A DNA stretch of 31,790 nt, from positions 1-31,790 of the IMG/VR virus record IMGVR_UViG_3300032086_000144; one strand, written 5' to 3'. The position numbers and the translations under genes are program-made. The notes beneath the pieces were generated by a model. That model saw only the letters and a program-made list of their open reading frames with translations. It was not told where the DNA came from and did no database searches. The first letter of the stretch is position 1, and each line of letters starts with the position of its first letter. Below are positions 3,621-29,889 of the stretch, piece after piece. Source of the DNA: a virus.

Positions 3621-3965
3621 CTAATCAAAATCTTCTGGCCCCAACTCAGGCAGGTTTCTCGCAAGTTGCAATTCGCTCGGCTGTGATCTTAGACGAAAGA
3701 AACCAAGATGTTCTGGGTATATATCCATGAACCACCGGGCATAGAGTGCGCTGAAGTTGTTATTTATCTTAAACGTAGACCTTCCTTCGTCGTCTGCCTG
3801 GTCTGTTTCCCACCGAATCCGCTCAAAGACTCCCTTTGCGGAATAGTTATTGAACCCACGCCCGATTACCTCGGACGTGAATTTTACAAAATACTCCCAA
3901 ACTTTGGGGTTTTCCTTGTGAAACTGGATTGCAGCTTCTTCGATCTCTTCGTATCGCGTTTTCAT
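3621..3965 (-). CDS. conserved phage protein (FxxxNPKVWEYFVK...FKINNNFSALYAR type)
   Basis: This 114-residue protein has an N-terminal FHKENPKVWEYFVKFTSEVI, then ARGxFERIRWET and KINNNFSALYARWFMDIYPE near the end. The pattern matches a small family regularly found in phage early regions beside replication or recombination genes. Its function is not established. The IRW...NNN...YAR core suggests a compact helical domain. It is translationally coupled by ATGA to the gene upstream. Confidence 0.76.
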   Translation of the reverse strand: MKTRYEEIEEAAIQFHKENPKVWEYFVKFTSEVIGRGFNNYSAKGVFERIRWETDQADDEGRSTFKINNNFSALYARWFMDIYPEHLGFFRLRSQPSELQLARNLPELGPEDFD

Positions 3966-4486
3966 GCTGCGTCCTCCTGATCGCCTCGCAGCTTTGAGGC
4001 TATCTCTTCAATCGGCTGCAGATTTACACCGAAAGCCTCGGCGCATCCACGATACCGACTGAGCCAACGGGTCAAATCCGCTGCGGCTTGCCGCCTTAAT
4101 TCAGCCCTTGATGTCTCATCTTCTGGGTTATACGGAACATAGCCGCCGCCCTTACGTCTGTTTGACATTGGGCTGATGAAGGCTGGCGCTTCGTAGCTAA
4201 TGACTGTCGCAAGCTTGCTGATATCTACCTTTTCAACAGGTGGGATGTGAATTTGTATCCGCAATCCGCTGACCAATTGACGAGCCAAAGCCATGCGATA
4301 TTGACGCGCTGCTTCTTTGTCGCCGGTTCCAAAGAACCTTTCATAACAAGGATGGTCTGGTTTATCTTCAAGCCATTCTGTAAACTCATCAACCTTGAAC
4401 ATATTGCGCCTGGTTTCTGTGAGGTAGCTATCAACTATCTCTTGACGCTCATCCTTGTTCCATATTCTGTCTATTCTTTCTTCCAT
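3962..4486 (-). CDS. conserved phage protein with central PAFIS motif
   Basis: The protein has 174 residues, is rich in charged helices, and has no membrane segment. The segments SYLTETRRNMF, RQYRMALARQLVSGLRI, EAPAFIS and GGGYVPYNPED, then RWLSRYRGCAEAF, resemble a hypothetical family I associate with phages and prophages of proteobacteria. The reaction is unknown. It has a strong ribosome site (AAAGGAAGGAAG) and follows the pentamer repeat, so it is the first gene after the long leftward gap. Confidence 0.7.
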   Translation of the reverse strand: MEERIDRIWNKDERQEIVDSYLTETRRNMFKVDEFTEWLEDKPDHPCYERFFGTGDKEAARQYRMALARQLVSGLRIQIHIPPVEKVDISKLATVISYEAPAFISPMSNRRKGGGYVPYNPEDETSRAELRRQAAADLTRWLSRYRGCAEAFGVNLQPIEEIASKLRGDQEDAA

Positions 4487-4554
4487 TTTTCTTCCTTCCT
4501 TTTGTTGGATGGTGAGGGATCAGCACGACCCCCCACCTTGGTTTTAGCTTTGCT

Positions 4555-4815
4555 TGCCACACCGGACCGCATCACACCGGGCCGCGCCACGCCGGACCCC
4601 GACCGCCTTGCCTAAACAAGCCACACCAAATCTAACCTTAGCGCACCTTAACAAACCATGCCGAGCCGAACCATGACCGCCTTGCCTTAACAAGCCTGAC
4701 CTGCCCCGCCGTACCGCGCCACTCCACGACCGCCGTACCTTACCGGATCTAACCAAACCGTGTCGTACCGTAACAAACCCAGCCGAGCCATGACCGCCTT
4801 GCCTTACCGTGTCGT
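4555..4815. repeat. degenerate pentanucleotide (CCNNN / NNNGG) repeat tract with four 13-15 bp sub-repeats
   Basis: Most of this stretch reads on the plus strand as five-base steps with CC or CG in a fixed phase, for example CCATG CCGAG CCGAA. On the leftward transcript it is a run of GGNNN units. Superimposed copies of GACCGCCTTGCCT start at 4601, 4675, 4728 (variant GACCGCCGTACCT) and 4792. It fills most of the 382-base gene-free gap 4487-4868. No credible coding frame exists; the long minus-strand frame is Gly/Arg repeat-derived. Similar tracts occur beside phage recombination genes. Role unknown. Confidence 0.8.
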
Positions 4816-4816
4816 T

Positions 4817-4845
4817 CGGGTGGACAACGGCAAAGTATCCACCCG
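4817..4845. other. 8-bp stem-loop at the edge of the pentamer tract
   Basis: CGGGTGGA (4817-4824) pairs with TCCACCCG (4838-4845) over a 13-base loop, just after the stop of the RAMP-like gene in leftward transcription. No U-tract follows on either side, so it is more likely an RNA processing or stability element than a rho-independent terminator. Confidence 0.5.
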
Positions 4846-4868
4846 TATTGCTTGCCGATAACATCTCC

Positions 4869-5636
4869 TTATGCTGCCATTCTGCGAGCGCGTTCTTCAT
4901 CCAAGAAGCCCATCAACTCTGCTGTCATTTCATCCGCATACTCTGGATAATCCAACGCATACTTTTGTTCTTCCATTCCAAACTTGGTGATGCGCTTCCA
5001 ATCGTCCTTGTAGTCTTTCCAATTCGGCAACTCTTCGCCGGTTACTGTAAAGCAACCATATGCCCCGCGCCCTTTCTCTTGTCGAAAGTCTCCAAGTCCA
5101 ATGATAGAACCCGCATTCTGTAGAAGGGTGAAAACATCTGAGGCTGAAAGTGTAGGCATCACAAACTTGATGTCAATCTCTGCGCACCATTCCGGCAAGT
5201 AAGCCCTCGTTCGCATGTCTGGCGTCTTGTTTATGTTTGCCATTCGTACCGTGTCGATCTTCAGATATGGCTTGCCATAGATTTCTGTCTGCAATTGTGG
5301 CAAAAACAGAAGGCGCTGTGCATTTGTTCTCGCAACTCCCTTTGTTTCAATGGCCGCTGTAGACATTGCTTGCTTGATTGCCGCCGGGGGAAAATACAGA
5401 TGTGTATTCCCATGGCTTTTTTTATACACGGAATCCCGAAACTCTTCTTCTGGATTGTGTTTTATCTCGCGCTTTTCCGCTGTGGTTTTTGGCGTACCGC
5501 CTATGAGCAAATCGCGCTTGGCCTTGATGCTCATTGAATTGTAGTAAAATGGGGTCGCTCCGATAAGTCGCAACTTTATTTCACCATGTTTTAGCGCGGT
5601 AACTAACGCGCCCTCTGTGGACTTTTTAACTGGCAT
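4869..5636 (-). CDS. RAMP/Cas7-like phage protein of unknown function
   Basis: The 255-residue start at 5636 is set by an ideal AAGGAAGGAAGAA ribosome site; an in-frame TTG at 5663 is less likely. IKLRLIGATPFYYNSM near residue 20 and a late glycine-rich loop (GLGDFRQEKGRGAYG, residues about 180-194) match a family common in actinophages and proteobacterial phages. There the sequence ends ...IGLGDWR...GRF. The beta-rich N-terminus plus the G-loop recall RNA-binding RAMP/Cas7 folds, but this is inference from pattern. It sits in the recombination operon directly after a zinc ribbon gene and before the repeat tract. Confidence 0.72.
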   Translation of the reverse strand: MPVKKSTEGALVTALKHGEIKLRLIGATPFYYNSMSIKAKRDLLIGGTPKTTAEKREIKHNPEEEFRDSVYKKSHGNTHLYFPPAAIKQAMSTAAIETKGVARTNAQRLLFLPQLQTEIYGKPYLKIDTVRMANINKTPDMRTRAYLPEWCAEIDIKFVMPTLSASDVFTLLQNAGSIIGLGDFRQEKGRGAYGCFTVTGEELPNWKDYKDDWKRITKFGMEEQKYALDYPEYADEMTAELMGFLDEERARRMAA

Positions 5637-5796
5637 TTCTTCCTTCCTTTCTGTCAGTTTCAATTTCTCCGCTTCCCTTACAGATCAAACAATCATCCCA
5701 CTTTGTATCGATATACCCGATATCTCGTGTGAAGCTTTGGGGCCGGGGGATTTCATATTCAACCTGGCCGTCCCCGTCACAATATGGGCAGATCAT
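5626..5796 (-). CDS. small zinc-finger protein, DnaJ-type CxxCxGxG repeats
   Basis: The frame from ATG 5796 encodes 56 residues. CPYCDGDG near the N-terminus and CLICKGSG about 30 residues later form two DnaJ-like CxxCxGxG half-sites that should bind one zinc. Such mini zinc fingers are common in phage early operons and are usually uncharacterised. The ATG overlaps the preceding TM-peptide stop (ATGA). A TTG at 5847 would add a hydrophobic extension that is already encoded in another frame by the TM peptide, so it was rejected. Confidence 0.74.
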   Translation of the reverse strand: MICPYCDGDGQVEYEIPRPQSFTRDIGYIDTKWDDCLICKGSGEIETDRKEGRNAS

Positions 5797-7143: not shown

Positions 7144-7232
7144 GAACAACAAAACAAGACAAGCTGTGCATTGCAGCGGCCATCATCTTAACCGTGGTTG
7201 CAATCATCGCAGTCAGTATGGGGCTGATATGA
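7140..7232 (+). CDS. single-transmembrane micro-protein (30 aa)
   Basis: ATG 7140 overlaps the resolvase stop, and its stop overlaps the initiator ATG 7229 (both ATGA). Residues after a short polar start (MRTTKQDKL) are a continuous hydrophobic helix (CIAAAIILTVVAIIAV). The exact double coupling is the main evidence that it is translated. Function is unknown. Confidence 0.62.
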   Translation: MRTTKQDKLCIAAAIILTVVAIIAVSMGLI

Positions 7233-8095
7233 AACCGGTCACGATCAGAGCAAAGGATCTGAGAAAGTTTGCGATCTTACCAATCAAAGCAATCACAGAT
7301 CCCGAGGTAACAAGAACCACGGCACTCTCTGTGCTGGCGGCTCTCTGTAGTTACTGCGATGAAACCGGCTGCACATTCGTTTCACAAGCAAGACTGGCAA
7401 GTGATCTCGGTATCTCTCGGCAAGCAGTCAACAAGCAGCTAAGAAAGCTGAGAGACTTAGAGTATATTGTCAGAGCCAAGCGGCGTTATAAAGGACAAAC
7501 AACCACCACGTACAAGGTCATCTATGACGATGTAAAAACAGAAGAAGAAGCACTTGCAAACTTATCACCAGCAGAGAGAATAGGACTAGAAGAACGCAGA
7601 GAAAAGCTAAGACAACAAATGGAAAACAAGCCATCAAAAGTCATCAATTTGCCTGTGGATAAGTCTGTGGATAAGTCTGTGGATAACTTTAAGGTGTCAA
7701 CCTCAGAAGTTTCACAGGGTGCAACCTCAGAAGTTTCACCCCCTGAAACCCCAGAAGTTTCACTAAACAGACCATTTAACAGTATAGTTAACAGTATAAG
7801 TGATGTCAGTAGACAGTGTTGTTCTTTGTTTTTAAGAATTGCTGAAAGTTATGGAACTCCAAGACAGGTCAATGATAGAGATTATCAGATCATGGAAAGT
7901 TGGGTTAAGGATGGGCTGACGGTCCAGATCTGGGGCGATATCCTGAAGGACCATGCGAAATGGTGCCACGATAACCGCAGAGATTACCCGCGAGGGCTGG
8001 CTTGGTTCGCGGTTCCAGTGCAAAAGAAGCTGGGAAATGCACCAAAACGCGGTAAGAATACAATCAATGCGGTAGTAAAAAAGCTAAGACCTTGA
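7229..8095 (+). CDS. phage replication initiator with winged-helix N-terminus
   Basis: The 288-residue protein begins at ATG 7229 in an ATGA overlap. The N-terminal domain contains a helix-turn-helix (SQARLASDLGISRQAVNKQL, residues about 52-71), then a basic wing-like segment and YKVIYDD. A charged helix and a repetitive linker (VDKSVDKSVDN and repeated SEVS) follow, then a C-terminal helical domain (DYQIMESWVKDGL...RGLAWFAVPVQKKL). This two-domain plan with a flexible linker is like lambda O and other phage initiators. The linker DNA holds DnaA boxes and iterons, so the protein probably binds within its own gene and recruits the host helicase. No helicase or primase gene is visible here. Confidence 0.8.
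   Translation: MKPVTIRAKDLRKFAILPIKAITDPEVTRTTALSVLAALCSYCDETGCTFVSQARLASDLGISRQAVNKQLRKLRDLEYIVRAKRRYKGQTTTTYKVIYDDVKTEEEALANLSPAERIGLEERREKLRQQMENKPSKVINLPVDKSVDKSVDNFKVSTSEVSQGATSEVSPPETPEVSLNRPFNSIVNSISDVSRQCCSLFLRIAESYGTPRQVNDRDYQIMESWVKDGLTVQIWGDILKDHAKWCHDNRRDYPRGLAWFAVPVQKKLGNAPKRGKNTINAVVKKLRP
7654..7798. other. candidate replication origin inside the initiator gene
   Basis: Three perfect DnaA-box complements TGTGGATAA occur at 7654, 7666 and 7678, twelve bp apart. Three 17-bp iterons (AACCYCAGAAGTTTCAC) follow at 7699, 7723 and 7747, exactly 24 bp apart. Two AT-rich TTAACAGTATA copies at 7776 and 7788, 12 bp apart, complete the row like a duplex-unwinding element. The order (DnaA boxes, iterons, AT-rich repeats) mimics plasmid and lambda-type origins, and placement within the initiator gene is known from lambda O. 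Confidence 0.78.
7699..7763 (+). repeat. three 17-bp iterons spaced 24 bp
   Basis: Copies 7699-7715 and 7723-7739 are identical (AACCTCAGAAGTTTCAC); 7747-7763 differs at one base (AACCCCAG...). They encode the SEVS repeats of the initiator linker. Their even spacing, just over two helical turns, suggests binding on one DNA face. Confidence 0.82.
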
Positions 8096-28344: not shown

Positions 28345-29040
28345 ATGGGTACATTTATTGACGGTGAAAGCGGCTCCTCAGTCCGTACAAAGATAAACGC
28401 CGCCATAGAAAAGACAGAAGGCACAAGCGCAATCAGCACAATTGATGTTGATGGTGGTGCTATTGATGGCGTAACAATTGGTACTAACTCTGCGGTTACT
28501 GATCTTCGAGTTGATAACTTACAGTTAGATGGAAACACAGTTTCTAGTACAAACTTAAATGGCGATGTGAATATATCTCCAAATGGCACTGGCACAGTTG
28601 TAATTAATACTGATCTTGATGTTGATAACATTAACATTAACGGGAATGCTATTACCAGCACGGATGCCAATGGCAATGTTACAATCACACCAAACGGTAC
28701 GGGTAAAACTGCAACAACTAATCTGACCTACAATGAAGTACAGTATGCCAGCTTGGGAACAACGGGAACGCTGACACCTGATCCTGCAAATGGGTCTGTT
28801 CAGAAGATTACCTTGACAGGCAACATTACAATCAACGCGCTTGGTGGCACTCCTGCGGCTGGTGACAGCGTAACACTGGTTATTGTTCAGCCAGCATCAG
28901 GCAACTATACCTTGACTTCTACGATGAAGTTTGCGGGTGGTACTAAAACGCTTTCTACGACTTCAAACTACATTGATGTTCTTACGATTTACTATGATGG
29001 AACAAACTATCTTGCGAATCTTGCGACCAACTTTAGCTAG
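28345..29040 (+). CDS. tail-fibre/spike-like protein with repeated Asn-Gly-Thr-Gly motifs
   Basis: This 231-residue protein starts after AAAGGAG. Two related motifs, LNGDVNISPNGTGTVVI and ANGNVTITPNGTGKTAT, lie about 40 residues apart and look like beta-solenoid turns of fibre proteins. The C-terminal half (QKITLTGNITINALGG, SVTLVIVQPASGNYTL) is also beta-rich. The place after the spike base and before the propeller protein suggests a fibre shaft or head protein of the adsorption apparatus. Confidence 0.76.
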   Translation: MGTFIDGESGSSVRTKINAAIEKTEGTSAISTIDVDGGAIDGVTIGTNSAVTDLRVDNLQLDGNTVSSTNLNGDVNISPNGTGTVVINTDLDVDNININGNAITSTDANGNVTITPNGTGKTATTNLTYNEVQYASLGTTGTLTPDPANGSVQKITLTGNITINALGGTPAAGDSVTLVIVQPASGNYTLTSTMKFAGGTKTLSTTSNYIDVLTIYYDGTNYLANLATNFS

Positions 29041-29049
29041 GATACTGTA

Positions 29050-29889
29050 ATGCCATTAGTCTTTGGGAGATCAATACTTGGATTTGGGGTTGTTGCTGGA
29101 CCGCCCGCTCCTACTTGGACTGATCCAGATTTAGCTAATGCTAGTTATGATAGTGTTAGCTTTTATGTTGGTGCAGCGGATGGTGTGCCTTCAGATTTAT
29201 TCTTTAAGTCTGATGGCACTAAACTTTATATTACAGGTTTTATTGGAGATGACGTAAATGAATACGATTTGAGCACTGCTTGGGATATAACATCTGCTTC
29301 TTATGTGCAGAATTTTTCTATTGCGGCAAAAGAAACATCTCCACGGGTAACATTTTTTAAGCCAGATGGAACAAAAATGTATGTGTGCGGCACCAGCAGT
29401 CAAAGTGTCCACGAGTATGGCCTGAGCACTGCTTGGGATGTTTCTACGGCTAGTTTTTCCAGTTCCTTTAGCGTGGCAACGCAGGACACCTTACCATCTG
29501 GAATGTTTTTTAAGGATGATGGAACAAAATTTTTTGTAACAGGCGATAGCGGCAATGCTGTTTATGAATATTCTATGTCTACTTCATGGGATATAACTAC
29601 ATCTTCTTATTCTGGCAATAGCTTTAGTACCGCGTCACAAGACACATCGCCAGTCGGTATTTTTTTTGCTCCAGACGGCGATTATTGTTATATAATAGGA
29701 CAGGCGACAAATTTTGTATATGAATATTCTTTGAGTACGGCATGGGATGCGTCAAGCGCCTCATATGTTCAAGGATTTGATGTCTCAAGTCAGAATACCA
29801 ATTCTCAAGGTTTGTTTTTTAAGCTTGATGGCTCCAAAATGTACGTTGTAAATTCTAATACCGATACAATCTACCAATACTCAACATAG
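29050..29889 (+). CDS. predicted five-bladed beta-propeller adsorption protein
   Basis: This 279-residue protein has an N-terminal anchor-like segment (MPLVFGRSILGFGVVAG) and five tandem repeats of about 46 residues. Each repeat reads like FFKSDGTKLYITGFIGD, then EYDLSTAWDITSASY. The fifth stops early (TDTIYQYST), and N-terminal residues about 22-40 (TWTDPDLANASYDSVSF) match the missing end of a repeat, as in circularly closed propellers. A small propeller in the tail module is a good candidate for the host-binding tip. Sugar specificity cannot be read. Confidence 0.72.
   Translation: MPLVFGRSILGFGVVAGPPAPTWTDPDLANASYDSVSFYVGAADGVPSDLFFKSDGTKLYITGFIGDDVNEYDLSTAWDITSASYVQNFSIAAKETSPRVTFFKPDGTKMYVCGTSSQSVHEYGLSTAWDVSTASFSSSFSVATQDTLPSGMFFKDDGTKFFVTGDSGNAVYEYSMSTSWDITTSSYSGNSFSTASQDTSPVGIFFAPDGDYCYIIGQATNFVYEYSLSTAWDASSASYVQGFDVSSQNTNSQGLFFKLDGSKMYVVNSNTDTIYQYST

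Follow-up and report, generated by a model that had tools for sequence, protein, structure and literature searches.

An array of GGY-NN units beside a RAMP-family gene

The window analyzed here is a stretch of viral DNA of 31,790 nucleotides (IMG/VR record IMGVR_UViG_3300032086_000144, positions 1 to 31,790), in which a degenerate five-base periodic tract lies 3' of a gene for a RAMP-like protein. The original prediction, made from the letters and open reading frames of the window, had described a CCNNN tract at 4555 to 4815 and proposed an autocorrelation check at lag 5. This check detected a clear excess. Identity at lag 5 over positions 4555 to 4820 was 0.51, compared with 0.29 ± 0.027 in 2000 dinucleotide-preserving shuffles (z = 8.1; 0/2000), and was likewise raised at lags 10 and 15, with no rise at lag 3. 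No other part of the window had as high a period-5 signal. The exact limits of the array were 4553 and 4811. The predicted periodicity was therefore real, with a revision of its strand and unit: the functional strand is the minus strand, on which the unit reads G(G/T)(T/C)NN, or GGY-NN, and CCNNN is the complement. The three uninterrupted modules contain 36 full units, in which G was counted at position 1 in 36/36 and at position 2 in 25/36, and T or C at position 3 in 36/36. Training of a five-state hidden Markov model (HMM) on the loci of relatives, with a loose GG prior at the outset, led to this unit, with G 0.92 at position 1, G 0.52 or T 0.38 at position 2, T 0.66 or C 0.28 at position 3 and almost no preference at the last two. 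The conservation of GGY-NN on the minus strand agreed with the earlier suggestion of selection for spaced G/C pairs on one strand. An open reading frame (4544 to 4900) stays open across the array; among relatives the open frame varies, and in several every frame is interrupted, which indicated that the array has no coding use, as had been supposed. A blastn comparison of the array region with known phages detected no match.

The parse of the array and its surroundings yielded the following features.

4869 to 5663, minus strand: vipr, a gene for a RAMP/Cas7-like protein with a C-terminal helical extension (assigned by phrog_4652, hhalign and an AlphaFold2 [AF2] model)
4818 to 4844, minus strand: 5' hairpin between vipr and the array (GGGTGGATAC...GTTGTCCACCC), a 10-pair helix
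4795 to 4811, minus strand: leader units CAC GGTAA GGCAA GGCG at the 5' start of the array, conserved in relatives
4731 to 4794, minus strand: guide module m1, NN = AT TC TG TT AC AC AC TT TA CC AA AC; predicted target, an HK97-type major capsid gene
4678 to 4730, minus strand: module m2, interrupted by a 4-base unit, GGCA
4604 to 4677, minus strand: guide module m3, NN = AT TC TC AT TT AA GC AA TA TT GT TT TA AA; predicted target, the coat-protein gene of HMO-2011-type phages
4553 to 4603, minus strand: guide module m4, NN = GG CC GT GC CC GT GC CC GT AA; antisense to Gly-X-Y repeats, specificity uncertain
4511 to 4537, minus strand: 3' hairpin after the last module (GGTGGGGGGTC gtgct GATCCCTCACC), an 11-pair helix

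The array thus consists of a leader and four modules. Modules m4, m1 and m3 comprise 10, 12 and 14 units, respectively; the interruption of m2 may perhaps reflect decay or the fusion of two short guides. Over all loci, 414 modules had a median of 10 units (range, 7 to 16). The nested 13- to 15-bp motif reported to occur four times did recur, and is better described as the junction between modules, AAGGCGGTC or GGCGGTC, at 4601 to 4609, 4675 to 4683, 4728 to 4734 and 4792 to 4800. At each GGCG|GTC boundary the 4-base unit GGCG breaks the register, and hence the CC phase jumps at the junctions. Modules inside the array end in this junction without a hairpin, and a single tail-like hairpin closes the whole array. 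In the 5' hairpin 98.9% of cells were paired over 9 sequences, with 3 pairs changed on both sides; in the 3' hairpin 100% of cells were paired in 10 sequences and covariation was weak. The segment 4488 to 4558 (minus strand), which spans the 3' hairpin immediately upstream of the 174-aa gene (3962 to 4486), resembled the Rfam L2-Alphaproteobacteria ribosomal-protein leader at 22.7 bits (E = 0.003), below the Rfam cutoff of 37.8 bits; this sequence likeness may perhaps reflect a shared leader shape or chance.

The Viral Interference Programmable Repeat (VIPR) was described in a 2026 preprint from experiments on Escherichia phage SUSP1 and a Pseudomonas fulva prophage (PMC13142463). The preprint distinguishes seven types of VIPR and accessory genes vap1 to vap6. 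VIPR combines a RAMP-family protein with guide RNAs of YNNGG repeats, in which NN pairs with DNA and one target base is skipped; the SUSP1 system binds double-stranded DNA (dsDNA) in vitro and has four vrRNAs, one upstream and three downstream of vipr (PMC13142463). The vipr product of the window has 264 amino acids (aa) from a TTG start, or 255 aa from an ATG at 5636. Both it (E = 5e-11) and SUSP1 Vipr (E = 1e-96) belonged to phrog_4652. Alignment by hhalign with SUSP1 Vipr alone gave a probability of 96% (E = 2.5e-9), and a profile comparison with SUSP1 Vipr and two Gordonia homologues gave 99.7%. The AF2 model (pLDDT 82) had its best PDB matches among Csm3/Cas7-type subunits (E = 2.8e-5), and the G-rich conserved segment GLGDFRQEKG aligned with GVGDWRP of SUSP1. 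The C-terminal helical extension (residues about 206 to 254 in the model; 4872 to 5020, minus strand) is absent from SUSP1 Vipr. The HMM from the relatives was also applied, as a positive control, to the initial 50 kb of SUSP1, where it recovered all four published vrRNA positions: three stretches lie downstream and one upstream of the 195-aa gene (28474 to 29061).

Decoded targets and the one-base skip

Guides were decoded by the published rule of one skipped base between successive dinucleotides (PMC13142463), and IMG/VR was searched with the nine-dinucleotide core of a guide as the pattern. The m3 core matched at least 120 contigs, compared with 2 for a control in which the same letters were spaced by a two-base skip. 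Among the matches listed, 118/120 m3 sites were antisense in the longest frame, with every skip on codon position 3. The m3 target gene encodes a major head protein (phrog_267, E = 2e-68) whose nearest counterparts in cultured phages are the coat proteins of CRP-345, CRP-1 and HMO-2011 (63 to 65%). In cultured phages, m3 matched CRP-9 and CRP-13 at 25/28 bases and CRP-1, CRP-345 and HMO-2011 at 24/28. The m1 core matched 14 contigs at 22 to 23 of 24 bases; all 14 sites were antisense and placed the skip on codon position 3. The gene matched encodes an HK97-type capsid (PF05065, E = 2e-50), nearest to those of Labrenzia phage vB_LagS-V1 and of Rhizobium phage 16-3 types. Module m4 decoded to (L/F)TGATGATGP Gly-X-Y repeats in at least 120 contigs from many phages (134/138 sites antisense among the matches listed, phase 0). 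The window itself contained no m1 or m3 match. A scan of 395 genomes from the family of bacteria that includes the carrier of a Pararhodobacter prophage, allowing three mismatches at most, also detected neither guide. A scan of 264 guides against 0.5 Mb of the phage's own relatives showed no excess at any skip. Because the capsid genes to which two guides decode belong to other marine phages, the array has the appearance of a weapon against competing viruses.

The one-base skip was then examined with independent data. Guides of relatives, which had not been used to fetch the contigs, were scanned against these 134 contigs at E ≤ 0.01, the E values of these scans assuming independent bases. Fourteen guides had 306 sites at skip 1, and there were none at skips 0, 2 and 3; the skip at these sites fell nearly always on the codon wobble base. 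The sites lay elsewhere in the same two capsid genes and in scaffold-like, portal, terminase, tail tube and tape-measure genes. In cultured phages picked by capsid homology and not by guide, 46 guide-phage matches from 10 guides were detected at skip 1, versus one each at skips 0, 2 and 3. Codon frame was assessed with the NN of 131 nonredundant guides. Placement on codon positions 1 and 2 gave the best fit (log likelihood, -3629), ahead of the independent-base null (-3650), positions 2 and 3 (-3685) and positions 3 and 1 (-3787). This result was clear for window-type guides; in the marine sister clade the codon model did not beat the null. Exact IMG/VR matches to two conserved guides of that clade numbered 0 and 1, and the single match (locus L064) was rejected as chance because it failed at the next dinucleotides and lay out of wobble register.

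Overall, these analyses indicated that the locus is very probably a VIPR system whose one-base-skip guides are directed against the capsid genes of rival phages and bind dsDNA. Several observations weigh against this interpretation. The contig matches of m1 and m3 came from patterns built on the one-base-skip rule, and the 134 contigs scanned with relatives' guides had been chosen by the window's own guides. A full-length perfect m3 target was absent from IMG/VR, the best having 25/28 bases with 10 consecutive dinucleotides perfect. The m4 matches are not specific, since this module decodes to a low-complexity repeat, and m2 contains a 4-base unit. The guides of the marine sister clade (L033 to L062) were without convincing targets. 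Finally, the 3' hairpin occurs once per array and not, as in the SUSP1 vrRNAs, once per guide.

An alternative is antisense silencing, in which RNA and protein would act on the mRNA of the rival and not on its DNA. Both specific guides of the window are antisense (m1, 14/14; m3, 118/120 among the matches listed) and could pair with mRNA, and the folds nearest to that of Vipr are Csm3/Cas7 of types III and VII, whose complexes act on RNA. The guides of relatives, however, were in part sense and in part antisense to the target gene, a mixture that fits DNA and not mRNA as the target. Those of L010, L011, L016 and L027 were sense in scaffold-like and terminase genes and could thus pair only with the template DNA strand. 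With the in vitro dsDNA binding of the SUSP1 system (PMC13142463), these orientations make silencing at the mRNA level improbable.

Conservation, module turnover and genomic neighbors

The RAMP-like gene had 62 relatives in IMG/VR at 37 to 99% protein identity. The period-5 tract was present 3' of the gene and on the same strand in most of them (nearly all of those with enough downstream sequence), and an array 3' of vipr was also present in 14/15 cellular loci and in two Gordonia phages. Comparison among relatives, as had been proposed, thus detected conservation of the tract down to 37% protein identity and upheld its association with the neighboring RAMP-like protein.

Five relatives whose Vipr and accessory proteins are 98 to 100% identical to those of the window share only the last module, m4, with it, and the m4 NN are common to all five. 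Their other modules differ, yet the guides address one or both of the same capsid genes elsewhere. In homologous modules at 85 to 95% identity, NN changed no faster than GGY; the change rates of the five unit positions in the 85 to 90% bin were.152,.206,.107,.095 and.064. Retention of NN in homologous modules and the codon-position fit indicated that information resides in NN. An RNA that scaffolds the RAMP-like protein, one of the roles originally suggested, comes near the best explanation but misses the guide information in the variable bases. A different layout was observed beside four more distant Vipr homologues from metagenome-assembled genomes (L079, L080, L081 and L082), where recurring TTTTCAAGGTTTCA-like segments break up the GGCNN tracts.

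A second alternative assigns the GGYNN tract a structural or recombination role, as a hotspot or as a binding scaffold for the ERF-like recombinase, and no guide content. The tract does have ERF-like and Gp157 genes downstream of it on its own strand, and near-identical phages do differ in their modules. Yet the ERF-like, Gp157 and RusA genes were found only in the 5 to 6 closest relatives, and elsewhere the RAMP-like gene and the tract keep together without them, amid quite different neighbors. The tract therefore tracks vipr and not the recombination genes. In addition, NN are as conserved as GGY in related modules, and decoded NN match capsid genes in wobble register. A recombination role was rejected on the basis of this exclusive linkage to vipr, and we regard it as highly improbable. 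Simple-sequence DNA from slippage of G-rich pentamers, or a translated repeat peptide, would account for the pentamer periodicity and the one frame open across the tract, but is scarcely credible given the highly diverse units (an argument already made in the original prediction), the fixed junctions that bound the modules, the conservation over 37 to 99% protein identity, the decoded targets and a reading frame that is not conserved among relatives, the last of which ruled out the translated repeat.

A further gene of the VIPR locus was suggested by its neighborhood.

3962 to 4486, minus strand: candidate vap (Vipr-accessory protein), 174 aa, a homologue of which adjoins vipr in 60/80 loci, prophages included

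Homologues of this gene were found on either side of the array among vipr loci. Because the 174-aa gene tracks vipr and the recombination genes do not, it is the candidate for the accessory gene, and the recombination operon is an incidental neighbor. The protein belongs to phrog_15946, for which no function is annotated; a PDB search with its AF2 model (pLDDT 79) gave no match. Some loci (L025, L060, L069, L070 and L072) hold two arrays, in several of them flanking the accessory gene.

Elsewhere in the window, a replication-initiator-like gene (7166 to 8095) contains 2.8 copies of CTGTGGATAAGT at 7653 to 7686, followed by 24-base repeats at 7693 to 7763. The complement of CTGTGGATAAGT contains TTATCCACA, which we take to be the DnaA-box consensus, and a replication origin is likely to lie inside this gene. 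The portal and terminase of the window virus were nearest to those of Methylophilales phage MEP301 (60 to 67%). Vipr relatives in genomes were mostly from Alphaproteobacteria, and the hosts of the predicted rivals are also Alphaproteobacteria.

Comparison with known systems and proposed mode of action

VIPR is already known as a class; the member in the window, its targets and the candidate accessory gene (3962 to 4486) are new here. The window and SUSP1 share a RAMP-family Vipr of phrog_4652 with GGY-NN pentamers in the adjoining intergenic region, and the modules of 10, 12 and 14 units compare with 9 to 16 repeats per vrRNA in the published description. Also shared are the one-base skip, the wobble register and targets in competing phages, which for the window are in silico matches. 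The differences lie in layout, proteins and targets. In the window the guides adjoin head to tail in one array, with the register broken by a 4-base unit, and one hairpin stands at each end of the whole array, whereas the SUSP1 vrRNAs are separate RNAs of ~100 nucleotides, each with its own invariable, structured 3' tail after the repeats. Window Vipr has about 255 aa, compared with 195 aa in SUSP1, and the window accessory gene has no evident likeness to that of SUSP1, a judgment made without formal comparison. The window targets are virion genes, whereas the published targets are satellite or lysogeny-switch genes.

The homologous proteins of Gordonia phages Ecliptus (gp19) and UmaThurman (gp39), at 28 to 29% identity, are likewise followed directly by a GGYNN array, at 4597 to 4806 (L066) and 4585 to 4898 (L067). 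These arrays are unannotated. The Gordonia proteins, annotated as hypothetical, are shorter, and the junction is GGCA and not GGCG. The backbone of class 1 CRISPR-Cas complexes (Csm3/Cas7 of types III-A, III-E and VII) resembles the system in fold and in a RAMP filament that runs along the guide RNA and spaces its base pairing. It differs in period, which is five bases in the window versus six, and the window guides carry information in two of five bases. No identical direct repeats with unique spacers between them were found in the window and no other cas genes were detected among the genes tested, which had no Pfam match to Cas families; PADLOC gave no Cas match for vipr or candidate vap.

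By analogy with SUSP1 and P. fulva, the array would be transcribed and processed, assembled with Vipr into a ribonucleoprotein and used for repression. The RNA would be coated by Vipr subunits that hold the GGY of each unit and leave its NN exposed, and the complex would bind dsDNA with successive paired dinucleotides one skipped base apart. In coding DNA the skipped base would nearly always be the third codon position, so that synonymous changes would not free the target. The guides, packed head to tail with GGCG|GTC as the sole separator, would address the capsid genes of other phages, and binding would thus block transcription of head genes during coinfection.

A more tentative proposal, which we consider possible but somewhat doubtful, is that this clade has a distinct VIPR architecture, with many guides per transcript split solely by a register-breaking 4-base unit, turnover among near-identical phages like that of CRISPR spacers, and capsid and packaging genes as recurrent targets. 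If so, there would be a way of acquiring or exchanging guides that is not yet known, and the strategy would be to stop rivals late, at virion assembly. The module turnover provides a data set on the evolution of guide arrays without a CRISPR acquisition module. The locus extends the VIPR code to uncultured, largely marine viruses and confirms the one-base-skip rule in silico on independent data. Concrete predicted targets are gained, some of them in cultured phages (CRP-9, CRP-13, CRP-1 and HMO-2011), and the viral opponents of uncultured phages, and the weapons used against them, become readable directly from sequence.
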